From contig NZ_CP097636.1 of NCBI RefSeq assembly GCF_023573145.1, forward strand, positions 1,798,001 through 1,862,000: DNA of 64,000 bases, written 5' to 3'. The notes under the pieces were generated by a model, which did no database searches, had not been told where the DNA came from, and saw only the letters and a list, made by a program, of their open reading frames with translations. Below, one piece after another: positions 14,789 to 53,682 of this stretch. The stretch comes from Aquincola tertiaricarbonis (GTDB lineage: Bacteria > Pseudomonadota > Gammaproteobacteria > Burkholderiales > Burkholderiaceae_C). Each line of letters starts with the position of its first letter. Positions within the stretch are counted from its first letter, which is position 1. A program made the translations under genes and the position numbers.

Positions 14789-17593
14789 TCAGGCGGTGAC
14801 CGGGGCGGCCACCAGGCGCTTGAGCTCCGGGATGCAGGAGCCACAGTTGGTACCGCATTTCAACCCAGCCTGCAGCTGCTGCAGGCGCTCGGCGGCACTG
14901 CCGCTGCAGCGGGGCAGCGCGGCTTCGATGTCGGTGGTGCTGACGTTGAAGCAGGTGCACACCTGGCGCCCGCGCACCGGCGTGGGCACGGGCGGCTGCG
15001 GGCCGCCCTGCAGCAGCTGGCGGCCATAGGCCTGGGTGGGCAGTTCGTCCTGCAGCAGCGGCTTGAGCCAGCTTTCGGCGCGGGCATCACCCGCCAGCAG
15101 GAAGGCTTCCAGCCGGCGGTCTTCCTGCACATGGCGCAGCCGCACCGCGCGGCGCTGGCCGCGGCGGGCGTCTTCGTAGTGCAGCACCGGCGCATCGTGG
15201 CTGCCGTAGGCCAGGCCCAGCAGGGTTTCGATGCGGCGCACCAGCGACATCGGCGGCGGGCCTTCATGCGCGGCCTTGAACATCAGCCCGCTGCGCTGGT
15301 GGCCGAAGGGCACGCACAGGGCATGGCTGAACTCGTGCATCAAGGCCTGCAGCGCCCGCCGCGCGGGCAGCAGCTCTTCGTCGGGCAGCCAGGCCAGGGC
15401 CGTCAGGCGCCAGGGCAGCTCGGCCTTCAGCAGCTTGACGGCGCAGTGCTTCAGCTCGGGCTGCTTGGAGCGCGGGCAGTAGCGCGGCGTGGTGAGGGCA
15501 TTCACCCCGGCCAGCGGCTCGCCACGGGCGCTGCGGCCGGAGACAAACTCTTCGCCCCAGTGCATCGCGATGTAGGCCTGCATCGGCCCCAGGCCCTCGT
15601 CGGCCGCGGCCGGCAGCACGATGGAGCCGCGCCGCGAGGTGACGTGCACCAGGTCGCCGGGCTGCAGGCCCAGGCGCTGCAGCTCGTGGGGGTGCAGGTC
15701 CACCGTGGGCTCGGGCGCCTGGCCGAACAAGCGCCCCAGGTTGCCGGTGCGGCTCATGCCATGCCACTGGTCGCGCAGGCGGCCGGTGTTCAGGCTGAAG
15801 GGGTGGCGCACGTCGCGCGGCTCGGCCACCGGCTCGAAGGGCGTGTCGAAGAAGCGTGCGCGCCCGTCCTCGGTGGGGAACACGCCGTCCTCGTACAGCC
15901 GGGCGCGGCCGCTGGCCTGGCCGGCGGGCAGCGGCCACTGCTGCGGTCCGGCGCTGTCCAGCAGCGCATAGCTGAGGCCGGTGATGTCGAGGTCGCGGCC
16001 ACGGGTGGTCTCGCGGTGCTCGTTCCACACCTGCTCGGGCGTGCTGTAGTCGAACAGCGGCATCTCGCCCGGGCGCAGCCGGCCTTCCAGCCGTTGTGCC
16101 AGCTCGGTGGCAATGTGCCAGTCGTGCCGGGCCTGGCCGGGCGCGGCCACCGCACGCCGCACGCGGCTGATGCGGCGCTCGCTGTTGGTCACGGTGCCTT
16201 CCTTCTCGCCCCAGGTGGTGGCAGGCAGCAGCAGGTCGGCGAAGGCGGCGGTGGCGGTGGTGGAGAAGGCTTCCTGCACCACGACGAAGTCGCAGCGCCG
16301 CAGGGCCTCGCGCACCAGCGCCTGGTCGGGCATCGACTGGGCGGGGTTGGTGCAGGCAATCCACAAGGCCTTGATCTGTCCTTCGGCCGCGGCCTTGAAC
16401 ATCTCCACCGCGCTCTTGCCCGGCTGCTCGGGGATGCGGGGCACGCCCCAGAAGGCGGCCATCTCGGCGCGGTGCGCCGGGTTGGCCAGGTCACGGTGGG
16501 CGGGCAGCAGGTTGGAAAGGCCGCCCACCTCGCGCCCGCCCATCGCATTGGGCTGGCCGGTGAGCGAGAAGGGTCCGGCGCCGGCGCGGCCGATCTGCCC
16601 CGTGGCCAGGTGCAGGTTGATCAGCGCCGCGTTCTTGGCCGTGCCGCTGGCGCTCTGGTTGAGGCCCTGGCAGTAGAGCGAGAGGGTGGGGCTGCGGCCT
16701 TCGCCCGGTGCGTCCAGCCCGGCGAACCAGGCGGCGGCCTGCAGCAGCGCGGGCTCGGTCAGGCCGGTCAAGCGGCTGGTTTCACGCGGGGTGAACTCGG
16801 CCACGCGGACGCGCAGCGCCTCGAAGCCCTGGGTATGGGCCTCGATGTAGTCGCGGTCCAGCCAGCCTTCGGCCAGCATCAGGTGCAGCAGGCCGTGGTA
16901 CAGCGCCACGTCGCTGCCGGGCAGCAGCGGCAGGTGCAGGTCGGCGGCGGCTGCGGTGTCGGTGCGCCGCGGGTCGGCCACGATGATGCGCAGCCGCGGG
17001 TCGGCGCGCTTGGCATCCTCGATGCGGCGGAACAGGATGGGGTGCGCCCAGGCGGTGTTGGCGCCGGTGATGAAGAGGGTGCGCGCATGGGCAAGGTCGT
17101 CGTAGCAGGCGGGCGGCGCATCGGCACCCAGCGTGGCCTTGTAGCCGGCCACCGCGCTGCTCATGCACAGGCGCGAGTTGGTGTCGACGTTGTTGGTGCC
17201 GATCAGCGCCTTGGCCAGCTTGTTGAAGACGTAGTAGTCCTCGGTGAGCAACTGGCCCGAGAGGTAGAAGCCCACCGCGTCGGGGCCATGGGTGCGGATG
17301 GCCTGCTCGAAGCGGTCGGTGGCCAGGGTCATGGCCTCGTTCCAGCTCAGCGGTTGCGGCGCGGCGTCGCGGTGGGCGCGCCGCATCGGGAACAGCAGCC
17401 GCGCATGCTGGGTGATGGGGGCGCTGGCCGTCAGGTGCAGCGTGCTGCCCTTGCTGCACAGGCGGCCGAAGTTGGCCGGGTGGTCCGGGTCACCGCGCAC
17501 GCCGGTGATCTGTTCGCCCTTCGATTCGATGACCACGCCGCAGCCCACGCCGCAGTAGGGGCAGGTGGAGCGGGTTTCCCGCAGCGCCGTCAC
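14789..17593 (-). CDS. nasA: Assimilatory nitrate reductase catalytic subunit NasA
   Basis: 934 residues from a GTG start overlapping the upstream stop (GTGA). The N-terminal [4Fe-4S] motif CPYCGVGCGV with a fourth Cys in GRLCSKGS is followed by molybdopterin guanine dinucleotide oxidoreductase domains to ~residue 680. The last ~65 residues form a BFD-like [2Fe-2S] domain (CTCFNVS, then CGTNCGSC). No Tat signal, so it is cytoplasmic. It reduces nitrate to nitrite with electrons from the flavoprotein encoded just upstream. Nitrite reductase itself is not in this window. Confidence 0.95.
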   Translation of the reverse strand: MTALRETRSTCPYCGVGCGVVIESKGEQITGVRGDPDHPANFGRLCSKGSTLHLTASAPITQHARLLFPMRRAHRDAAPQPLSWNEAMTLATDRFEQAIRTHGPDAVGFYLSGQLLTEDYYVFNKLAKALIGTNNVDTNSRLCMSSAVAGYKATLGADAPPACYDDLAHARTLFITGANTAWAHPILFRRIEDAKRADPRLRIIVADPRRTDTAAAADLHLPLLPGSDVALYHGLLHLMLAEGWLDRDYIEAHTQGFEALRVRVAEFTPRETSRLTGLTEPALLQAAAWFAGLDAPGEGRSPTLSLYCQGLNQSASGTAKNAALINLHLATGQIGRAGAGPFSLTGQPNAMGGREVGGLSNLLPAHRDLANPAHRAEMAAFWGVPRIPEQPGKSAVEMFKAAAEGQIKALWIACTNPAQSMPDQALVREALRRCDFVVVQEAFSTTATAAFADLLLPATTWGEKEGTVTNSERRISRVRRAVAAPGQARHDWHIATELAQRLEGRLRPGEMPLFDYSTPEQVWNEHRETTRGRDLDITGLSYALLDSAGPQQWPLPAGQASGRARLYEDGVFPTEDGRARFFDTPFEPVAEPRDVRHPFSLNTGRLRDQWHGMSRTGNLGRLFGQAPEPTVDLHPHELQRLGLQPGDLVHVTSRRGSIVLPAAADEGLGPMQAYIAMHWGEEFVSGRSARGEPLAGVNALTTPRYCPRSKQPELKHCAVKLLKAELPWRLTALAWLPDEELLPARRALQALMHEFSHALCVPFGHQRSGLMFKAAHEGPPPMSLVRRIETLLGLAYGSHDAPVLHYEDARRGQRRAVRLRHVQEDRRLEAFLLAGDARAESWLKPLLQDELPTQAYGRQLLQGGPQPPVPTPVRGRQVCTCFNVSTTDIEAALPRCSGSAAERLQQLQAGLKCGTNCGSCIPELKRLVAAPVTA

Positions 17594-18810
17594 TGGGTCA
17601 CCCCCCGTCCGAAGATCAGGCGGTCGCGGATGTCCTCGATGTCGCGGCCTTCGCGCAGCAGGTCGAAGTACCAGGGGCCGTCGGCGGTGTCGCCGTACAG
17701 GCAGGCGCCCACCAGCTTGTTGTCCTGGATCACCAGCTTCTTGTAGACGCCGCCGAACGGGTCGCTCATCACGATCTCCTCGGTGTGTTCACCACCCATG
17801 AAGTTGCCTGCGGAAAACAGGTCGATGCCGGTGACCTTGAGCTTGGTGCTGGTCTGGCTGCCGGTGTAACGGCCCGAGCCCACCTGCGCCAGGTGGGTGG
17901 CGCACACCCGGCCCTGCTCATACAGCGGCGCCACCAGGCCGTAGGCCACGCCGCGGTGGGCGGCGCACTCGCCCACGGCGTACACCCGCGGGTCGGTCAC
18001 CGTCTGCAGCGTGTCGCCCACCACGATGCCGCGCAGGCAGTGCAGGCCCGCCGCCTCGGCCAGCGCGACGTTGGGCCGGATGCCGGCCGACATCACCACC
18101 AGGTCGGCCGCGATCTCGCTGCCGTCGGCCAGGCGCACGGCGCGCACGCGGCCCTCGGCCGGGTCGCCCAGCAGCGCCTGCGTCTGCGCACCGAGCGCAA
18201 AGCGCAGGCCGCGGTCCTCCAGCGCCTGCTGCAGCAGCCGGGCGGCGGGTTCGTCCAGCTGCCGCTCCAGCAGCCAGCGGCCGATGTGCACCACCGTCAC
18301 CTGCATGCCGCGCAGCATCAGGCCGTTGGCGGCTTCCAGGCCCAGCAGCCCGCCGCCGATGACCACCGCATGGCGGTAGCGGGCCGCGGCATCGATCATG
18401 GCCTGGGTGTCGGCGATGTCGCGGTAGGCGATGACCCCAGGCAACGTGTTGCCCGGGATGGGCGGCATGAAGGGCGTGGAGCCGGTGGCCAGCAGCAGCC
18501 GGTCGTAGGTGGCCTCGGTGCCGTCGTCGGCGCGCACCCGGCGCAGGTGGCGGTCGATGTCCACCACCTTGCGGCCCAGGTGCAGTGTGATGCCGTGCTG
18601 CGCGTACCACTCGTGCGGGTTCAGCACGATCTCGTCCAGCGTCTGCTCGCCGGCCAGCACCGGCGACAGCATGATGCGGTTGTAGTTGGGGTGCGGCTCG
18701 GCCCCGAAGACGGTGATGTCGTACAGCCCCGGGGCGATCTTCAGCAGCTCTTCCAGGGTGCGCACGCCGGCCATGCCGTTGCCCACCATCACCAGTTTGA
18801 GTTTGTTCAT
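17590..18810 (-). CDS. FAD/NAD(P)H oxidoreductase, NasC-like (NirB N-terminal half)
   Basis: 406 residues from the ATG at 18810 (MNKLKLVMVGNGMAGVRTL). It has an FAD-binding Rossmann motif at the N-terminus, a second NAD(P)H-binding motif VVIGGGLLGLEAANGL near residue 150, and a C-terminal region with DPFGGVYKKLVI. It matches the flavin half of the large nitrite reductase NirB but stops before the [2Fe-2S] and siroheme domains. With nasA directly downstream and overlapping, it is best read as the electron-donating subunit of the nitrate reductase, like Klebsiella NasC. It is the first gene of the operon. Confidence 0.85.
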   Translation of the reverse strand: MNKLKLVMVGNGMAGVRTLEELLKIAPGLYDITVFGAEPHPNYNRIMLSPVLAGEQTLDEIVLNPHEWYAQHGITLHLGRKVVDIDRHLRRVRADDGTEATYDRLLLATGSTPFMPPIPGNTLPGVIAYRDIADTQAMIDAAARYRHAVVIGGGLLGLEAANGLMLRGMQVTVVHIGRWLLERQLDEPAARLLQQALEDRGLRFALGAQTQALLGDPAEGRVRAVRLADGSEIAADLVVMSAGIRPNVALAEAAGLHCLRGIVVGDTLQTVTDPRVYAVGECAAHRGVAYGLVAPLYEQGRVCATHLAQVGSGRYTGSQTSTKLKVTGIDLFSAGNFMGGEHTEEIVMSDPFGGVYKKLVIQDNKLVGACLYGDTADGPWYFDLLREGRDIEDIRDRLIFGRGVTQ

Positions 18811-18867
18811 CGACGACGACAGACGCACGAAGCTCCTCCGAGAGCGGCAAAGGTGCGGCAGGCCCCA

Positions 18868-18974
18868 GGAAGCCGCAATGCTTCCAGGTCTGCCCGGGAG
18901 GGTCATGGCTGCGCACGTCGGTGTGCACGGCAACCGTGCACTACAGGCACACGGCGGTGGCGCTTCGCTGCGCC
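18868..18974 (-). promoter_or_regulatory. Putative ANTAR-target hairpins in the nitrate reductase leader
   Basis: On the minus strand, GGCGC-AGCGAA-GCGCC (18974-18959) and GGAAGC-ATTGCG-GCTTCC (18885-18868) each form a stem with a six-base loop having A1 and G4, the signature bound by ANTAR proteins such as NasR and NasT. They are ~73 bases apart, longer than usual, with an 8-bp triloop palindrome between them (18923-18941, GTGCACGG/CCGTGCAC). I see no U-tract terminator before the start codon, so control might be of translation or Rho-dependent. Confidence 0.5.
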
Positions 18975-22407: not shown

Positions 22408-22433
22408 GGCGGGGGTACTGGTAGCATCGGCGC

Positions 22434-22662
22434 TGTTGGTGCCTGGGTTGCGCTTCGTTGCAGCTCGGGGTAAACGGGAAGCAGGAAGGCGGGTGCCCCA
22501 CGGGCCAGGCTCAACCTGCGCTGCCCCCGCAACGGTAAGCGGACGGATGGTTGATCTGATCAACCTTCCAGCGACGAGCTCTCTGCCACTGGGTGGCCGG
22601 CCTGCAAGGCCGCGCCTGGGAAGGCGCCGCGTCGAGTCCGCCAGCCCGGATACCGGCCAACG
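22434..22662 (+). promoter_or_regulatory. Cobalamin riboswitch upstream of btuB
   Basis: Conserved cobalamin aptamer elements appear in order: TTGGTGCC at 22436, TAAACGGGAA, the core CTGCCCCCGCAACGGTAAGC, GCCACTGGG, GGGAAGGC and the B12-box region AGTCCGCCAGCCCGGATACC. It ends ~85 bases before the btuB ATG. AdoCbl binding would lower expression of the downstream uptake and synthesis operon. No clear intrinsic terminator follows, so control is probably by ribosome access. Confidence 0.92.
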
Positions 22663-22748
22663 AGCGGTGATGCCCCCTTGCAGGTGGCTCGCCTTGTCGC
22701 AGACACCCGCGGGGAAGCAGGTGGCTGCATCCGTTGTCCTTGCCCCTC

Positions 22749-46444: not shown

Positions 46445-48583
46445 TCACTCGTATGCAACGTGCGTGCCAGCCAGCTGCTCCACAGGTTGGGGCGTCACCG
46501 CTGTCGGCGCCGGATCGCGCGCCCAGGTGGCGATCAGGCGTGCGCTCATCGGCTTGGCGTACAGGTAGCCCTGCAGCTGGTCGCAGCCCAGGCGGTTGAG
46601 CAGGCGGCGCTGGGCTTCGGTTTCCACGCCCTCGGCCACCACCGTCAGCCCCAGCGCATGGGCCATGCGGATCACCGCATCGACGATCGCGCAGGCGTCA
46701 CCGCTGGTAGCCAGGTCGAGCACGAAGCTGCGGTCGATCTTCAGCTCGGACACCGGCAGCCGGCGCAGGTAGCCCAGGCTGGAGTACCCGGTGCCGAAGT
46801 CGTCGATCGACAACGGCACCCCGGCGGCGGCCAGCTGGTCGACCAGGCCGCGGGTGATGCCGGTGTCTTCCATCGCGGCCGATTCGGTGATCTCGCAGCT
46901 CAGCAGCCCGGGCGGCACCTGGTGGCGCTGCATGGCCTGGCTGATGCGCTGCGCCAGGTCGGGCTGGCGCAGCTGGTGCACCGACAGGTTGATGGACACC
47001 TTCAGCCGCAGCCCGTCCTGCAGCCAGCGCCGCATCTGCCGGCAGGCTTCTTCGATCACCCAGTCGCCCAGCGCCCCGATCAGGCCTGCGCGCTCGGCCA
47101 GCGGCACGAACACCACGGGCGGCACCCAGCCGCGGTCGGGGTGGCGCCAGCGCAGCAAGGCCTCGACGCCGGTGATGTGGCCGTCGCGTGCATCCACCTT
47201 GGGCTGATACATCAGCTCGAGCTGCCGGCGCTCGATGGCACGGCGCAGGTCGCGCAGCAGCTCGGTCTGGTCGCGGCTGCTCTCGGTCATGTGGCTTTCG
47301 AAGAAGCAGTAGCTGGCGCGGCCGTTCTGCTTGGCGCAGCGCACCGCGGCGCTGGCCTGCGTCACCAGCGTGGCCATCGTGCCGTCCTGCGGGTACATGG
47401 CCAGGCCGATGGAGCAGGACGAGGCCACCTCGCGCGCTTCCAGCAGCAGCACGTCGCTGAGGCGCTGGATGGCATGGCCGGCCGCGCGGGCGGCGGTGTC
47501 GCGGTCGGGGTTGCCGCCCAGCAGCACCAGGAACTCGTCGCCCGAGGCATGGGCCACCAGATCGTTGGGGCCGGCGAGGCGCTGCAGGCGGCGCGCCATG
47601 CTGCACAAGAGCGCGTCGCCCGCCGCCGGGCCGAAGGATTCGTTGATGGTCTTCAGGCCATCGACGTTGATGCACATGACGGCCAGGCGCTGGCACTGCC
47701 GGTCGGCCCGCATGGCCGCTGCCTGCAGGTGGTGCTCGAAGGCCTGGCGGTTGGGCAGCGAGGTGAGGGGGTGGGTGAGGGCCGCCTCATGCCGTTGCAC
47801 GCGGGCGTGGTCGTGCAGCGCCATCACGCGCAGGGCCAGCGCCTGGGCCAGGGCCAGCAGGCCGGCCACCGCGGGCGCCACGGCCAACGCCAGCAGCAGC
47901 AGCACCGTGGGCTGTCGCGTTGTGCTGCCGGCGGTACCGGACAGCCAAGCCCACCCGCCGCCAGCAGCGGCAGAACTGGCAGCCTGCTGGCTGGCCTCGA
48001 GCATCGTTTCGGCGGCATGCAGCACCGCCAGGTCTGCCGCTACGCACATGCCGCCCACCACCGCGGCATGCACCATCAACAGCGGCACAGGACGGCGCTG
48101 CAGGCGCGGCGCACGCAGGCTGAGGGCCGAAGCAGGCAGCAGCGCCAGCGCGGCGCAAGCCAGCAACGGCAGCTGCCAGGACAGCTCGGCGCCGGGCAGG
48201 GCGGCGCCAATGGCGACCATGGGCAGCGCCAGCCAGCCGCCCGCCTGCAACACCACCGCCAGGCAGCGATGGGCCTGGCCGGGCCGCTGGTGCAGCAGGC
48301 GTGCGACCACGGTGCCGCCGATGGGCGGCAGCAGGGCAGCGGGCAACCAGCCGGGGCGCTGCAGCAGCGCGTCGGGTGCCGCATAGGCGGTGACCATCAG
48401 GTGCAGGCCCCACCAGGCCACCGCCGCCAGCAAGGCCCACAGCACCAGGGCCAGACGGCGCGCGGCAAGCTGTTCAGGCGAAGTTGAGGCGCCTTCCTGG
48501 GCGGGCAGCCGCGCGGCCATGCCCACCACCAGCAAGGCTGCCATCCAGGCGTACACCGCCAATCCCATCGCCTCTCTTGTCAT
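46445..48583 (-). CDS. Membrane GGDEF-EAL protein, possible degenerate MHYT sensor
   Basis: 712 residues from the ATG at 48583 (MTREAMGLAVYAWMAALLVV); a GTG seven codons earlier is possible. About seven hydrophobic segments fill ~1-250. Two of them, WWGLHLMVTAYA and GGMCVAADLAVLHAAE, have the spacing of MHYT repeats but lack the Met-His-Tyr core, so the sensor call is tentative. GGDEF domain ~275-430 with SGDEF in place of GGDEF; EAL domain ~445-690 with [41 protein letters not shown] and VAEGVETEA. The EAL site looks active. Confidence 0.87.
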   Translation of the reverse strand: MTREAMGLAVYAWMAALLVVGMAARLPAQEGASTSPEQLAARRLALVLWALLAAVAWWGLHLMVTAYAAPDALLQRPGWLPAALLPPIGGTVVARLLHQRPGQAHRCLAVVLQAGGWLALPMVAIGAALPGAELSWQLPLLACAALALLPASALSLRAPRLQRRPVPLLMVHAAVVGGMCVAADLAVLHAAETMLEASQQAASSAAAGGGWAWLSGTAGSTTRQPTVLLLLALAVAPAVAGLLALAQALALRVMALHDHARVQRHEAALTHPLTSLPNRQAFEHHLQAAAMRADRQCQRLAVMCINVDGLKTINESFGPAAGDALLCSMARRLQRLAGPNDLVAHASGDEFLVLLGGNPDRDTAARAAGHAIQRLSDVLLLEAREVASSCSIGLAMYPQDGTMATLVTQASAAVRCAKQNGRASYCFFESHMTESSRDQTELLRDLRRAIERRQLELMYQPKVDARDGHITGVEALLRWRHPDRGWVPPVVFVPLAERAGLIGALGDWVIEEACRQMRRWLQDGLRLKVSINLSVHQLRQPDLAQRISQAMQRHQVPPGLLSCEITESAAMEDTGITRGLVDQLAAAGVPLSIDDFGTGYSSLGYLRRLPVSELKIDRSFVLDLATSGDACAIVDAVIRMAHALGLTVVAEGVETEAQRRLLNRLGCDQLQGYLYAKPMSARLIATWARDPAPTAVTPQPVEQLAGTHVAYE

Positions 48584-48666
48584 CCCACGGCCCCGTTTCG
48601 CCACGCGAAAGTGCCATTAGATGATAAAAGTGATGTGGCATCGGTTGACGGGGAGATAAAACCCGT

Positions 48667-49467
48667 TCAGGCGGCAGTTCTTGCGGTCTGGCCGTGCCGC
48701 GTGTACAGGAAATCCAACACCTGCTTGCGGCAGTGCACGTAGTCGGCATCCTCGGCCAGCGCCACACGGTCGCGCGGGCGGGCCAGGTCCACCTGCAGGA
48801 TCTCGCCGATGGTGGCGGCCGGGCCGTTGGTCATCATCACGATGCGGTCGGACAGCAGCACCGCTTCGTCCACATCGTGCGTCACCATCACCACGGTGCT
48901 GCGGGTTCTGGCCACGATCTTCAGCAGCTCGTCCTGCAGCTTGGCGCGGGTCAGCGCATCCAGCGCGCCGAAGGGCTCGTCCATCAGCAGCACCTTGGGC
49001 TCCATCGCCAGCGCACGGGCGATGCCCACGCGCTGCTTCATGCCGCCCGAGATCTCGTGCGGGCGCTTGCCGGCGGCGTGGCTCATGCCCACCAGTTCCA
49101 GCGCGGCCTGCGAGCGGGCCGTGAGTTGCGCCTTGGTTTCGCGGGCGCCGAACACCCGTTCCACCCCCAGGTGCACGTTCTCCTGGCAGGTCAGCCAGGG
49201 CAGCAGCGAATGGTTCTGGAACACCACCGCCCGCTCCGGCCCCGGCGCGGCAATCTCGCGGCCGTCGCAGATCAGGGCGCCCGCGGTCGGCCGGGTGAGG
49301 CCGGCGATCAGGTTGAGCAGCGTGCTCTTGCCGCAGCCGGAGTGGCCGATCAGCGTGATGAACTCGCCTTGCGCCACCTGCAGGTGGATGTCGCGCAGCG
49401 CATGGAAGCGGCCCTTGCGGGTGTTGAACACCATTTCGGCGCCGTCCACCTGGATGAATGCGGTCAT
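48667..49467 (-). CDS. nrtD: Nitrate ABC transporter ATP-binding protein NrtD-like
   Basis: 266 residues. Walker A GHSGCGKSTLLN, signature EISGGMKQRVGIARAL, Walker B VLLMDEPFGALD and the switch His in VTHDVDEA. It belongs to the nitrate/sulfonate/bicarbonate subfamily. The nrtA- and nrtB-like genes upstream make nitrate/nitrite (or cyanate) the likely substrate. No fused NrtC-type binding domain is present. Confidence 0.92.
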   Translation of the reverse strand: MTAFIQVDGAEMVFNTRKGRFHALRDIHLQVAQGEFITLIGHSGCGKSTLLNLIAGLTRPTAGALICDGREIAAPGPERAVVFQNHSLLPWLTCQENVHLGVERVFGARETKAQLTARSQAALELVGMSHAAGKRPHEISGGMKQRVGIARALAMEPKVLLMDEPFGALDALTRAKLQDELLKIVARTRSTVVMVTHDVDEAVLLSDRIVMMTNGPAATIGEILQVDLARPRDRVALAEDADYVHCRKQVLDFLYTRHGQTARTAA

Positions 49468-49479
49468 GGTCGGCTCCGG

Positions 49480-50382
49480 TCAGTCGTCGAAGGAGAAGCG
49501 CCGTGCCACCGCCACCAGGGCCTGCTCGAGCAGCAGGCCCACGATGCCGATGACGAAGATGGCGATCAGGATGTGCTGGACGTTGAGGTTGTTCCACTCG
49601 TCCCACACCCAGAAGCCGATGCCCACGCCGCCGGTCAGCATCTCGGCGGCCACGATCACCAGCCAGGCCGTGCCCACCGACAGGCGCACGCCGGTCAGCA
49701 TGTAGGGCAGCACCGCCGGGAACAGGATGCGCGTGATCACCTTCCATTCGCTCAGGTCCAGCACCCGGGCCACGTTGAGGTAGTCCTGCGGCACCCGCTG
49801 CACACCCACCGCGGTGTTGATCACCATCGGCCAGATCGAGCAGATGAAGATGGTCCAGATGGCGGCCGGGTTGGCGGCCTTGAACACCAGCAGACCGATG
49901 GGCAGCCAGGCCAGCGGCGACACCGGCCGAAGCAGGCTGATCAAGGGGTTGACCATGCGGCTGAGGAACTCGAAGCGGCCGATGACGAAGCCCAGCGGTA
50001 TGCCCACCAGCGCGGCCAGGCCGAAGCCCACGGCCACCCGCTCCAGCGAGAACAGGATGTTCCAGCCGATGCCCTGGTCGTTGGGGCCGTTGCGGTAGAA
50101 GGGGTCGGCGAAGAGCTTGACCGCCGCCTCGAAAGTGGCCTGCGGCGTGGGAAAGCTGGTGCTGCCACGGGTGAGCAGCCCCCACACCACCACCAGCAGC
50201 GCCAGCCCCACCACGGGGGGCAGCACCGTCATCCACACAGCGCGCATGTCGATGGGCGTTCGCGCCGGGGCGGCGGGGCGGGGCGGGGCCGGCGGCGCGG
50301 CCTCGTCGGCGGGGGTGGCAGGCACGCCGGCCTGGGCGTCGTCCTGCGTTTGCAGCGGTGAGTGGAACACGGCACTGACCAT
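49480..50382 (-). CDS. nrtB: Nitrate ABC transporter permease NrtB-like
   Basis: 300 residues. A Pro/Ala-rich cytoplasmic lead (~1-45) precedes about six membrane helices. The EAA-loop motif occurs in EWKVITRILFPAVLPYMLTG and WLVIVAAEMLTGGVGIGFWV follows. It pairs with NrtD in the inner membrane. It lies 22 bases after nrtA and 12 before nrtD. Confidence 0.92.
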   Translation of the reverse strand: MVSAVFHSPLQTQDDAQAGVPATPADEAAPPAPPRPAAPARTPIDMRAVWMTVLPPVVGLALLVVVWGLLTRGSTSFPTPQATFEAAVKLFADPFYRNGPNDQGIGWNILFSLERVAVGFGLAALVGIPLGFVIGRFEFLSRMVNPLISLLRPVSPLAWLPIGLLVFKAANPAAIWTIFICSIWPMVINTAVGVQRVPQDYLNVARVLDLSEWKVITRILFPAVLPYMLTGVRLSVGTAWLVIVAAEMLTGGVGIGFWVWDEWNNLNVQHILIAIFVIGIVGLLLEQALVAVARRFSFDD

Positions 50383-50404: not shown

Positions 50405-51670
50405 TCAGGCGGCGCTGAGCTTGATCTTGAAGCCGTCGGCGTACCTGGCCGGCTCCTTGCCGTCCCACACCACGCCGTCGATCAGCTTGCTGCTGCGCAT
50501 GACGTCCTTGGGCAGGTTGATCTTCATCGCGCCGGCCACCTGTCTATACAAGTCGACCTGGTTGATCTGCTTGACCACGGCCAGGTAGTCGGGGTGCTCG
50601 CGCAGCAGGCCCCAGCGCTTGTGCTGGGTCAGGAACCACATGCCGTCCGACAGGTACGGGAAGTTCACCGCGCCGTCGTTGAAGAACTTCATGTGGTTGG
50701 GGTCGTCCCAGGTCTTGCCCAGGCCGTTCTGGTAGCGGCCCAGGATGCGCTGGTTGATGGCGTCGACGGCGGTGTTGACGTAGGCCTTGTCGGCCACGGT
50801 CTCGGCCATCTTCAGCTTGTTCTGCAGGCTGGCGTCGATCCAGCGGCTGGCTTCCAGCACCGCCATCATCACCGCGCGGGTGGTGTTGGGGTACTTCTTG
50901 ACGAAGTCGCCGGTGGTGCCCAGCACCTTCTCGGGGTGGTCCTTCCAGATGTCCTGGGTGGTGACGGCGGTGATGCCGATGCCGTCCATGATGGCGCGGT
51001 GGCCCCAGGGCTCGCCGACGCAGTAGCCGTCCATGTTGCCCACGCGCATGTTGGCCACCATCTGCGGCGGCGGCACGGTGATGACCTTGGCGTCCTTCAT
51101 CGGGTTGATGCCCACGCTGGCCAGCCAGTAGTACAGCCACATCGCGTGCGTGCCGGTGGGGAAGGTCTGCGCGAAGGTGTATTCGCGCTTCTCGGCAGCC
51201 ATGGCCTTGGCCAGCGAGGCACCGTCCACCGCCCCCTTGTCCGCCAGCTTCTTGCTCAGCGTGATGGCCTGGCCGTTGTTGTTCAAGGTCATGAGCACCG
51301 CCATGTCCTTGCCCTTGTTGCCGGGCATGCCCACGCCCAGGTGCACGCCGTACACCAGGCCGTAGAGCACGTGGGCCATGTCCAGCTCGCCGTTGACGAG
51401 CTTGTCGCGCACGCCGGCCCAGGAGGCTTCCTTGGTGGGGATGATCTTGACGCCGTACTTGCGGTCGAAGCCCAGCACCGAGGCCATCACCACCGACGCG
51501 CAGTCGGTCAGCGGGATGAAGCCGATGCGCACCTCCTCCTTCTCGGGCTTGTCCGAGCCTTGTGCGTACACGGCGGATTGAAGTCCGGGCACGACGCCCG
51601 CTGCGGTGGCTGCGGTGGCGGCGGCAACGAGTTGGCGGCGTCCCATGTTGATCTGATCCTTGGCTGGCAT
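50405..51670 (-). CDS. nrtA: Nitrate-binding protein NrtA/CmpA-like with Tat-type signal
   Basis: 421 residues from the ATG at 51670 (MPAKDQINMGRRQLVAAATA); an upstream ATG adds 13 residues inside the terminator region. A twin-Arg motif followed by a hydrophobic stretch and AYAQG-like cleavage region indicates Tat export. The mature protein opens EVRIGFIPLTDCASVVMA and has VANMRVGNMDGYCVGEPWGHRA, the CmpA/NrtA/NasS family core. It binds nitrate for NrtB/NrtD. Whether it also acts as the NasS-type sensor is unknown; the signal argues for a periplasmic role. Confidence 0.91.
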   Translation of the reverse strand: MPAKDQINMGRRQLVAAATAATAAGVVPGLQSAVYAQGSDKPEKEEVRIGFIPLTDCASVVMASVLGFDRKYGVKIIPTKEASWAGVRDKLVNGELDMAHVLYGLVYGVHLGVGMPGNKGKDMAVLMTLNNNGQAITLSKKLADKGAVDGASLAKAMAAEKREYTFAQTFPTGTHAMWLYYWLASVGINPMKDAKVITVPPPQMVANMRVGNMDGYCVGEPWGHRAIMDGIGITAVTTQDIWKDHPEKVLGTTGDFVKKYPNTTRAVMMAVLEASRWIDASLQNKLKMAETVADKAYVNTAVDAINQRILGRYQNGLGKTWDDPNHMKFFNDGAVNFPYLSDGMWFLTQHKRWGLLREHPDYLAVVKQINQVDLYRQVAGAMKINLPKDVMRSSKLIDGVVWDGKEPARYADGFKIKLSAA

Positions 51671-51703: not shown

Positions 51704-51762
51704 AAACAAAAAAGGCGTCCCTCACAGACCCGGGCTTCGCCTCGGGGTGTGGGGGACGCCTT
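51704..51762 (-). terminator. Leader terminator upstream of nrtA
   Basis: On the minus strand AAGGCGTCCC pairs with GGGACGCCTT around a ~28-base internal part that is itself partly paired (CACACCCC/GGGTCTGTG). TTTTTTGTTTG follows. It lies ~35 bases before the nrtA ATG and downstream of two ANTAR-type hairpins, so it is a likely antitermination target and not the end of nasT. Confidence 0.85.
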
Positions 51763-51774
51763 CGTCCGGTACCC

Positions 51775-51827
51775 GGCGCGCCAGCGGTGGCGCACCAGGA
51801 TGTGTTCAGGAGATCGCCGTTGACCTC
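51775..51827 (-). promoter_or_regulatory. Tandem ANTAR-target hairpins in the nrtABD leader
   Basis: Minus strand, 5' to 3': P1 GAGGTC-AACGGC-GATCTC (51827-51810), a 13-base linker, then P2 GGTGCGCC-ACCGCT-GGCGCGCC (51796-51775). Both loops have six bases with A1 and G4, the recognition rule for NasR/NasT/EutV. Stems are six and eight pairs, each with one G-U pair. The terminator begins 13 bases later. Confidence 0.75.
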
Positions 51828-51843
51828 TTGGAGACGTCTAGTC

Positions 51844-51858
51844 GCAAGCCGCATGCCA
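51844..51858 (-). promoter_or_regulatory. Sigma54 (-24/-12) promoter of the nrtABD leader
   Basis: Minus strand TGGCATG-CGGC-TTGC has GG-N10-GC spacing exactly and one mismatch to TGGCACG-N4-TTGC. The predicted start near 51832 gives a ~160-base leader that opens just before ANTAR hairpin P1. Confidence 0.75.
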
Positions 51859-51887
51859 GCCGAATGCGGCTGTAAACCAGGGCTGGT

Positions 51888-51902
51888 GCACGTTTAGCGT
51901 GC
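51888..51902. promoter_or_regulatory. Possible NtrC-type site upstream of the nrtABD promoter
   Basis: GCAC-N7-GTGC (GCACGTTTAGCGTGC on the plus strand) matches the outer halves and spacing of GCACYANNNTRGTGC, though not the inner bases. It lies about 30 bases upstream of the -24 element, closer than typical enhancers. Confidence 0.35.
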
Positions 51903-51952
51903 CGGCCGCGCGCTGCGCTGGTGCCTGTGCAGGCGCGTTGGCGTGCGGGTGG

Positions 51953-52591
51953 TCAGCCCAGCAGGTCGGACACGTCGACGATGCGCTGCGCCACCTCGGC
52001 CAGCTTCAGGCCCTTGTCCATCGCCGTCTTGCGCAGGCGGGCATAGGCCTCTTCTTCGCCGATGGCCTGGCGCTTCATCAGGATGCCCTTGGCGCGCTCG
52101 ATCACCTTGCGTTCGCTGAGCTGGTTGCGCGCCTGGGCCAGTTCGGTGCGCAGTCGCTCCTCGTGCTCGAAGCGCGCCATCGCGATGTCCAGCACCGGCT
52201 TCACCCGCTCGGACGCCAGGCCGGCCACCACATAAGCGGTGACGCCGGCCGCGATGGCATCGCGCACATGGCTGGTGTCTTCGTCGTCGGTGAACAGCAC
52301 GATGGGCCGGCGCGCGTCGCGGGTGGCCATGACCACATGCTCCAGCGTGTCGCGGGCCTGGCTTTCGGCGTCCACCACGATCATGTCGGGCTGGATCTGC
52401 GCCAGCCGGTCGGGCAGGAACACGTCCACCGGCAGCACCGCGACGATGTTGTAGCCGGCCTCTAGCAGGCCGATGCGCAGGCTGCGCGAGCGTTCGGCCT
52501 CCCACCAGGCGTCCACGTCATGCGGCTCGGGCGAGAGCGATTCCGGCGCCACGATGACGATGCGCAGGGGTGACGGAGACGGCGACGGCAT
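51953..52591 (-). CDS. nasT: ANTAR antiterminator response regulator NasT
   Basis: 212 residues. An N-terminal receiver-like domain ~8-140 ([10 protein letters not shown], then MIVVDAES with an Asp at the acceptor position, [11 protein letters not shown]) with an unusual ~15-residue insert after the first strand. C-terminal ANTAR domain ~150-212: [20 protein letters not shown] and [20 protein letters not shown]. NasT-type proteins bind paired hexaloop hairpins in leader RNA and prevent termination. The only such leader adjacent is that of nrtA, directly downstream. A nasS gene, its usual partner, is not adjacent. Confidence 0.92.
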
Positions 52592-52635
52592 GGGGGCGGA
52601 GCGAGCAAGGTTCGCGCCACGAGGACGGCGCTGAC

Positions 52636-52647: not shown

Positions 52648-53682
52648 ATGAATGTACTTGGCATCGAATCGTCCTGCGACGAGACCGGTGTGGCCCTGGT
52701 GACGAGCGATGGCACGAGCGTGCCGCGGCTGCTGGCCCATGCGTTGCACAGCCAGATCGACATGCACCAGGCCTATGGCGGCGTGGTGCCCGAACTGGCT
52801 TCGCGCGACCACATCCGGCGGGTGCTGCCGCTGACCCGGCAGGTGATGGCGAAGGCCGGCCTGGGCCTGGACGCGGTGGACCTGGTGGCCTTCACCCGCG
52901 GCCCCGGGCTGGCCGGGGCCCTGCTGGTGGGCGCCGGCGTGGCCTGTGCGCTGGCGGCCGCGCTGGACAAGCCCACGCTGGGCGTGCACCACCTCGAAGG
53001 GCATCTGCTGTCGCCGTTCCTGTCCGCCGATCCGCCGGAGTTCCCGTTCGTCGCGCTGCTGGTCTCGGGCGGCCACACCCAGCTGATGCACGTGGCCGGC
53101 GTGGGCGACTACGAGATGCTGGGCGAGACCATCGACGACGCGGCCGGCGAAGCCTTCGACAAGTCGGCCAAGCTGCTGGGCCTGGGCTACCCGGGCGGGC
53201 CGGCCTTGTCGCGCATGGCCGCGTATGGCGACCCCACGGCCTTTGCGCTGCCGCGGCCGCTGCTGCACAACGGCAACCTCGACTTCTCGTTCGCGGGCCT
53301 GAAGACCGCGGTGCTGACCCAGGTGCGCAAACTGGGCAGCAACGTCTGCGAGCAAGACCGTGCCAACCTGGCCGCCAGCACGCAGGCCGCCATCGTGGAA
53401 GTGCTGGTCAAGAAGTCGATGCGGGCGCTGAAGGAGGCGGGTGCGCAGCGTCTGGTGGTGGCAGGTGGCGTGGGCGCCAACAGCGAGCTTCGGGCCCAGC
53501 TCAATGCCGCCTGCCAGAAAGCCAGGGTGCGGGTGCACTACCCCGAGCTGGACCTGTGCACCGACAACGGCGCGATGATCGCGATGGCGGCGGCGATGCG
53601 GCTGCAAAGCGGCCGCGCTACGCCGTCACGCGACTATGCCTTCGACGTGCGGCCGCGCTGGCCGCTGCAGTCCAACGACTGA
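52648..53682 (+). CDS. tsaD: tRNA N6-adenosine threonylcarbamoyltransferase TsaD
   Basis: 344 residues from the ATG at 52648 ([18 protein letters not shown]). Metal-binding His pair in [42 protein letters not shown] and [10 protein letters not shown]. With TsaB and TsaE it completes the t6A37 modification of ANN-decoding tRNAs. Divergent from nasT with 56 bases between. Confidence 0.96.

Follow-up and report, generated by a model that had tools for sequence, protein, structure and literature searches.

In the published ANTAR-controlled leaders, the second hairpin, P2, is embedded in the terminator, according to the portions of the reports available to us (PMC3369931, PMC8934654). The accessible text on EutV leaders describes reduced induction after changes of loop position A1, linkers of 5–12 nt in eut leaders and a sharp reduction of induction in vivo with a longer linker (PMC3369931); 20 further linker nucleotides abolished antitermination in vitro, as described in the part of the paper at hand (PMC8934654). 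For nitrate assimilation, excerpts of the work on Paracoccus state that NasT binds the nasA leader and that two leader hairpins were mutated (PMC3795266, PMC5424462). A 2025 survey predicts 66 sigma54 promoters for ANTAR genes (COG3707), mainly in beta- and gammaproteobacteria, with NasT named; the terms nrtA and leaderless are absent from its text (PMC12316311). Here, we describe a nasT–nrtA intergenic leader in a 64,000-nt stretch of Aquincola tertiaricarbonis DNA (hereafter, the window) and compare it with these systems.

Architecture of the leader before nrtA

The leader region lies on the minus strand between nasT (52591-51953) and the start of nrtA (51670). The nrtA gene (50405..51670, minus strand; Pfam NMT1_2, 8e-101) encodes a nitrate-binding protein with a twin-arginine-type signal peptide, as judged by inspection of its N terminus, and its best PDB match is the NrtA structure 2g29 (9e-82). 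It is followed on the same strand by genes for the permease NrtB (49480..50382; TIGR01183, above its cut-off) and the ATPase NrtC (48667..49467; Pfam ABC_tran, 1.6e-35). On the far side of nasT, tsaD (52648..53682, plus strand; Pfam TsaD, 1.8e-94) is upstream and divergent, an arrangement also found in many relatives. Directly behind nrtC, a gene for a GGDEF-EAL protein (46445-48604, minus strand) contains, close to its 3′ end, a 12/12 sigma54-type match at 46469. The assimilatory nitrate reductase genes nasB-nasA (14789-18906, minus strand) and nrtABC are ~30 kb apart; several relatives have nasB a few kilobases from nrtA. A candidate ANTAR-type leader before nasB in the window (sigma54 site 19004-, loops AGCGAA and ACCGAC) was dropped, as its hexaloops are absent in the closest relative.

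As proposed in the initial annotation, the leader has a sigma54-type promoter with a GG-N10-GC core (51843..51858, minus strand; TGGCATGCGGCTTGCG; predicted +1 near 51832). It agrees at 10 of 12 positions with TGGCACG-N4-TTGCW, which we take to be the sigma54 consensus. Further upstream, a weak NtrC-like inverted repeat (51887..51903, minus strand; GGCACGCTAAACGTGCA) scores 9/12 against a consensus that we presume for NtrC sites. Scores of at least 9 occurred in 44 of 65 distinct upstream regions versus 10% in mononucleotide shuffles, and the distance between repeat and sigma54 site is not constant among loci.

The two A1/G4 hexaloop hairpins that had been noted are also present, separated by 13 nt: hairpin A at 51810..51827 (minus strand; GAGGTC[AACGGC]GATCTC) and hairpin B at 51775..51796 (minus strand; GGTGCGCC[ACCGCT]GGCGCGCC), with RNA folding predicting the B loop as a tetraloop closed by an A-U pair. 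With a search rule of two A1/G4 hexaloops, stems of at least 6 bp and a gap of 4–24 nt, this pair occurs once in the window and was seen in one of ten dinucleotide shuffles of the window. The intrinsic terminator with a T-run claimed before nrtA was recovered at 51708..51760 (minus strand; GGCGTCCC...GGGACGCC followed by TTTTTT), comprising a hairpin at 51760-51714 and the T-run at 51713-51708; a simple terminator scan restricted to loops of 3–8 called none at the leader. Folding of the leader, a check suggested in the annotation, gave z scores of −4.7 (157 nt) and −5.8 (125 nt). At Rfam gathering scores, there was no match in the leader; the sole match in the window was a cobalamin riboswitch (RF00174) at 22420-22676 on the plus strand (60.9 bits).

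The initial annotation had missed a third hairpin, C (51754..51767, minus strand; GGAC[GAAGGC]GTCC), that overlaps the terminator, which starts at 51760. Loop positions 4–6 of C together with its 3′ strand are the first seven bases of the terminator 5′ arm, making C and the terminator mutually exclusive. In agreement with this arrangement, folding predicts A, B and C for RNA truncated after C (−38.5 kcal/mol), and A, B and the terminator in place of C for the leader extended up to the T-run (−69.8 kcal/mol). The P2 hairpin of EutV sits where C sits, and C rather than B is therefore the P2-like hairpin of this leader. Thus, A and B, previously taken for the complete hairpin set, do not represent a canonical P1/P2 pair, and B is an additional hairpin compared with the two-hairpin ANTAR motif.

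All three hairpins have six-nucleotide loops with G at position 4, although 1–6 pairing is predicted to reduce B and C to tetraloops, in C through a G1-C6 pair. Position 1 is A in hairpins A and B and G in C. The linkers measure 7 nt between B and C and 42 nt between A and C, compared with about 5–12 nt between ANTAR P1 and P2. Because the P2-like C has G1, we class the leader as a variant that would work like the ANTAR dual-hexaloop family instead of as a plain member. We read its sequence as that of a three-hairpin ANTAR variant and, ordinary in principle, a real NasT-type antitermination leader.

Conservation of the leader and probable exchange of its regulator

To evaluate the leader in relatives, we combined a NasT locus search, which contributed 67 loci from named records including many metagenome-assembled genomes, with a search of 100 related genomes. 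The latter gave a NasT-like match in 49 genomes, of which two (G047 and G059, 30–31% identity) may be other ANTAR proteins. In total, nasT and nrtA were both matched at 87 loci, repeats of one genome included, and a sigma54 site of at least 9/12 lay between the two genes at 83 of these (24 scoring 12, 43 scoring 11, 15 scoring 10 and one scoring 9). The four loci without a site (L019, L020, L080 and L081) come from beyond the family, and nasT is followed in each by a NasS-like gene.

Hairpin C, searched with only A or G allowed at loop position 1 and G at position 4, was detected at the terminator start in 78 of the 83 related leaders. Its stem reached at least 4 bp in 72 of 83, compared with 2.4 on average and never more than 7 after base shuffling of the segments. 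Displaced windows satisfied the C rule (3 bp) in 6 to 17 of 83 leaders; those at −25 and −50 gave 59 and 40 of 83, as these positions meet B and A. For the five loci lacking C by this first rule, C was assigned through GAC[RNNGNN]GTC anywhere behind the start. Removal of repeats left 76 distinct leaders, of which 72 have two hairpins upstream of C and all have at least one upstream A1/G4 hexaloop. The A1/G4 loop is present in A in 65 of 72 and in B in 47 of 76 leaders. Of the 76, 36 have it in A as well as B, and 12 have it in all three hairpins; position 1 of the C loop is A in 33 and G in 43 leaders. Stem pairs 4–6, which are free of the search rule, still pair despite changes in 54/57, 49/57 and 47/56 cases for A (shuffle maxima 52, 43 and 32) and in 44/47, 40/47 and 40/47 cases for B (shuffle maxima 31, 30 and 34). 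The C stem shows almost no variation among leaders. Among its 63 distinct stems, G4 of the loop is present in all, as the rule requires, and the rule-free G5 and C6 in 56 and 59. Where B lacks the A1/G4 hexaloop, a hairpin is still predicted at its position, and B may therefore serve as a spacer in such leaders.

These patterns bear on the view of the initial annotation that A and B form the whole NasT site, with the terminator a separate downstream element and C only its base. In the window, both A and B carry A1/G4 loops at a gap of 13 nt, C has G1 instead of A1, and the C stem varies too little to show covariation, all of which would suit this view. We nevertheless consider it unlikely, given the retention of C at the terminator start and of its G5 and C6 beyond the search rule, the 29 of 76 leaders in which B has no A1/G4 hexaloop but C is kept, and three leaders (L070, L115 and L116) composed of a single A1/G4 hairpin and an A1/G4 C. 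A plain terminator that ends nasT transcription, with coincidental hexaloops, would fit the position just behind nasT but is barely conceivable, as a sigma54 site separates nasT from the terminator and the hexaloop stems covary across the 76 distinct leaders.

Loci with another regulator extend the comparison. A NasR protein with NIT and ANTAR domains (Pfam NIT, 4.9e-45) is encoded beside nirBD on another contig of the same genome (C1:2985583-2986884). Among the 100 relatives, the searches recovered NasR in 14, NasT in 49 and both in three. At seven of the 14 NasR loci, nasR takes the place of nasT and is directly followed by a sigma54 leader and an nrtA-type gene; the products of five of these genes are 77–84% identical to NrtA, and two genes are of other types. 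GGAC[AACGGC]GTCC is located at the terminator start in all seven leaders, and six have an upstream A1/G4 hexaloop with at least 4 bp. These loci support, at the sequence level, ANTAR control of the nrt operon and an exchange of regulators, and their C-type hairpins (7/7, with the upstream hexaloop in 6/7) further argue against A and B as the entire NasT site and for C as its P2-like part. NasR of this genome could act on the nrt leader as well, since a NIT and ANTAR protein is available beside nirBD. That it controls or shares the leader in place of NasT is, however, very doubtful considering the rarity of NasR relative to NasT and the retention of the leader in many genomes in which NasR was not found.

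The nasR region of the same genome (L017) contains further leader-like sequences. Between nasR and a formate/nitrite transporter gene (~10119-10245 of L017), a sigma54 site precedes a two-hairpin ANTAR-type leader with CGAGCT[AAAGGC]GGCTCG and ACGGAT[GACGGC]GTCCGT, the latter overlapping the terminator and again with G1 in the P2 loop. Before nirBD (~5713-5800 of L017), a sigma54-type site is accompanied by the hexaloops AGCGTC and GATGAC and a terminator that appears weak by eye; in the closest relative, GATGAA replaces GATGAC.

NasT, its promoter and candidate nitrate sensors

As the initial annotation stated, the gene immediately upstream of the leader encodes NasT (51953..52591, minus strand), a protein of 212 aa with a receiver-like and an ANTAR domain (Pfam ANTAR, 1e-21). 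In the alignment, the receiver-like domain begins without the usual acidic pair and also lacks the conserved lysine, and an N-terminal insert of ~15 residues is shared with close relatives and missing from more distant NasTs. The nearest solved relatives by sequence are 6wsh (response regulator), 1s8n, 4akk and 1qo0 (AmiR), the first of which is presumably EutV. An NCBIfam scan of NasT and NrtA returned nothing specific.

The nasT gene has its own sigma54-type site (52604..52619, minus strand; TGGCGCGAACCTTGCT), overlooked in the initial annotation, at a spacing of 12 nt from the start codon and with a predicted +1 near 52593, 2 nt before the ATG. Among loci with a NasT of at least 53% identity, 79 of 81 distinct upstream regions contain a sigma54-type site of at least 9/12 within 150 nt, and an in-frame ATG or GTG follows the 16-mer by 10–14 nt in 74 of 81; this is the first in-frame ATG or GTG in 68 cases and lies behind another in six. 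As +1 is expected ~10 nt after the 16-mer, these nasT mRNAs would have 0–4 leader bases, and by eye no ribosome-binding site precedes nasT. The nasT mRNA is thus predicted to be leaderless. In literature on leaderless, sigma54-dependent and nitrogen-related transcription, nasT is unnamed in titles and abstract openings. The available text on an ntrC deletion of Acidovorax citrulli reports an inability to use nitrate, lowered 'nasS' and raised nasT (PMC10052978); the gene called nasS there may be nrtA. The raised nasT mRNA is a poor fit to a simple NtrC-driven nasT promoter, as far as the accessible part of that study goes (PMC10052978).

The adjacent genes of the nrt/nasT locus do not include nasS. 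The genome encodes two strong NMT1_2 proteins (339 and 286 bits; next 86), the second with a twin-arginine-type stretch near its N terminus and its own permease and ATPase genes behind. NasS was not found in this genome, as both strong NMT1_2 proteins have a signal-type stretch and are followed by transporter genes. A NasS-like query from Sinorhizobium, applied to 100 genomes of which 60 belong to the family, gave no NasS in the 60 family genomes at an E limit of 1e-40, a limit that a more diverged NasS could escape; in the genome of the window, it matched only NrtA at E up to 1e-40. NasT-like matches occur in 35 family genomes. Of these, 32 also matched this query under the same limit, in 31 cases at a distance from nasT of ~5 kb or less on one contig. 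The inspected N termini of these nasT-adjacent matches identify them as NrtA with signal peptides, apart from the signal-less replacement-transporter cases discussed below, and a NasS beside nasT was recognized only in G062 from another family. The locus is consequently not the full regulatory set that the initial annotation had described. Among 76 distinct nasT-adjacent NrtA N termini, 72 contain RR, and 60 of these satisfy a stricter criterion of RR plus a hydrophobic stretch; signal-less proteins make up the remaining four. Two NrtA in tandem, each with an RR signal peptide, are encoded at L244 and L252 (G210).

Loci in which the transporter has been replaced provide further information on the sensor. 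We defined them by a P0004-type binding protein of at least 70% identity, sought at E up to 1e-180 and present in ten of 399 family and five of 399 order genomes; L029 and L066 were added from the NasT locus search. The transporter genes were inspected at seven loci, the others being known by the binding protein only: in L029, L066, G003, G122, G371 and G048, a permease gene and an open frame with two ATPase domains follow the P0004-type gene, and in G062 the ATPase is single. Nine loci have nasT directly upstream (L029, L066, G003, G041, G122, G371, G238, G725 and G062), and all nine keep a further NrtA/NasS-type protein, which is NrtA-derived without a signal peptide in seven, NrtA-derived with a Tat-like N terminus in G238 and NasS in G062; by eye, eight of the nine have no signal peptide. 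In contrast, none of the four loci with nasR directly upstream (G048 and G204 of the same genus, G137 and G488) keeps such a protein (Fisher's exact P = 1/715, calculated by hand and ignoring kinship). A further NrtA-type protein is also missing from G433 (opposite-strand ANTAR gene), G419 (no regulator match) and G528 (nasT ~5 kb away), and the G777 locus is cut off by the contig end. Because of G238 and the former three loci, a signal-less partner as a general rule for P0004-type loci was narrowed to those with nasT directly upstream. The extra protein as a part of the replacement transporter was rejected as the main reading, since G048 has this transporter set behind nasR and no such protein.

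On the basis of the nine nasT versus four nasR loci, NrtA may double as the sensor of NasT, and these gene arrangements are most simply read as a requirement of NasT, but not of NasR, for an NrtA-type partner. The exported NrtA is the only adjacent sensor candidate in the window. We tentatively suggest that NrtA takes up nitrate while folding in the cytoplasm, ahead of its Tat export, and there holds or frees NasT as NasS does. This suggestion agrees with the failure to find NasS in this and the 60 family genomes, with the transporter set of G048 that manages behind nasR without an NrtA-type protein, with the RR motif in nearly all nasT-adjacent NrtA proteins and with the retention of W, Q, H and K, which we take to be the pocket residues of NrtA, in all eight NrtA-derived proteins, including that of G238. 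Several points weigh against it. Six signal-less proteins form one clade (99/98) within Burkholderiales NrtA, perhaps of single origin, in a tree with long-branch warnings (in a second tree, four of them were placed apart from NasS), and they may be a separately evolved sensor, uninformative on exported NrtA. G433 (L286), with a replacement nitrate-binding protein behind a sigma54 site and no extra NrtA, is an exception to the pattern, and G419 and G528 likewise keep no such protein. In addition, signal peptides were assigned by eye and hydrophobicity from assumed starts (GTG in L029 and G122).

NasT could alternatively be active once made, with nitrogen limitation acting through sigma54 as the sole signal and no nitrate sensing at the leader. 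The missing NasS and the sigma54 sites at both nasT and the leader are compatible with this possibility, as is the finding that, in Paracoccus, NasT is active once released from NasS, as given in the portion of the study available (PMC3795266). Against it, the promoter would leave an attenuator and its dedicated ANTAR factor almost nothing to add, and yet the attenuator is widely kept, and nasR with its nitrate-sensing NIT domain replaces nasT before the same kind of operon. We regard it as a serious alternative that falls short of being probable. NrtA as a sensor would make one protein both an exported transport component and a cytoplasmic regulator, thereby tying transcription of the operon to its capacity for uptake, and would reveal an evolutionary route to NasS. 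A broader scenario, likewise possible but held with reservation, is that in Burkholderiales without NasS, the Tat substrate NrtA senses for NasT and, after transporter replacement, a signal-less NrtA became a dedicated sensor as a second route to NasS, combined with a leaderless nasT under sigma54 control and a relay antiterminator of three hairpins.

Proposed mechanism and relation to known systems

The promoter motif, hairpins A, B and C, the exclusivity of C and the terminator and their conservation provide the basis in sequence and folding for a model in which the leader is, with good confidence, a nitrogen-controlled NasT attenuator before nrtABC that operates through a switch between C and the terminator. 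RNA polymerase with sigma54 would start near 51832, probably with involvement of NtrC, and the leader RNA would form hairpins A and B. Without active NasT, RNA after B would fold into the terminator and transcription would stop near 51708. Active NasT would be recruited to one or both of the upstream hexaloops of A and B and then hold C, in a presumed order of binding; as C uses the first bases of the terminator 5′ arm, the terminator would be blocked and nrtABC transcribed. The added hairpin B may offer a second recruitment site in many species and act as a mere spacer in others. Given the A–C spacing of 42 nt, A would act only through B or if B folds the gap away. With sigma54 sites at nasT and at the leader, one system may drive both NasT and its target in a coherent feed-forward loop. 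Points against this mechanism are G1 in the C loop of the window (GAAGGC), in view of the effect of A1 changes in EutV leaders, the A–C spacing far above that of eut linkers, the second ANTAR protein of this genome and, for NtrC activation of nasT, the raised nasT mRNA in the A. citrulli ntrC deletion. Overall, NasT-type antitermination from a sigma54 promoter, as interpreted in the initial annotation, is well backed by conservation; A and B as a canonical pair and the full set did not stand, and the NasR analogy does not account for nitrate sensing.

Titles and abstract openings of the literature on ANTAR hexaloop or dual-hairpin leaders and on NasT, NasS and NrtA, with few subscription journals represented, contained none on the three-hairpin form, a G1 P2-like loop, a leaderless nasT or a missing NasS. 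The leader is compact and widely conserved, and its three tandem hexaloops offer a natural relay test of the successive-binding model, as presented in the accessible part of its description (PMC8934654). It makes the nitrate input of NasT without NasS a testable matter and, likewise, the handover from hairpin to hairpin for ANTAR proteins.

Among known systems, NasS–NasT of Paracoccus, Azotobacter and Bradyrhizobium shares with the window a NasT-type ANTAR regulator and a leader with terminator before nitrate-assimilation genes; in the window, by contrast, NasS was not found, nasT directly precedes the nrtABC leader and nasT is predicted to be leaderless. The analogy to Klebsiella NasR/nasF drawn in the initial annotation applies to ANTAR antitermination in nitrate assimilation but not to sensing, as NasR senses nitrate itself through its NIT domain and NasT has no recognized sensing domain, according to the available text of PMC3795266. 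The sigma54 promoters predicted for ANTAR genes, with NasT named in the accessible portion of that survey (PMC12316311), resemble the promoter of nasT described here. The closest structural parallels are the ANTAR dual-hexaloop antiterminators EutV/eutP, NasR/nasF and AmiR/amiE, which likewise feature small G4-hexaloop hairpins, the last of them in the terminator 5′ arm, and an ANTAR protein encoded nearby. Unlike these, the window leader has three hairpins instead of two, a G1 in the P2-like loop that recurs in 43 of the 76 distinct leaders and a spacing of 42 nt from the first to the last hairpin.
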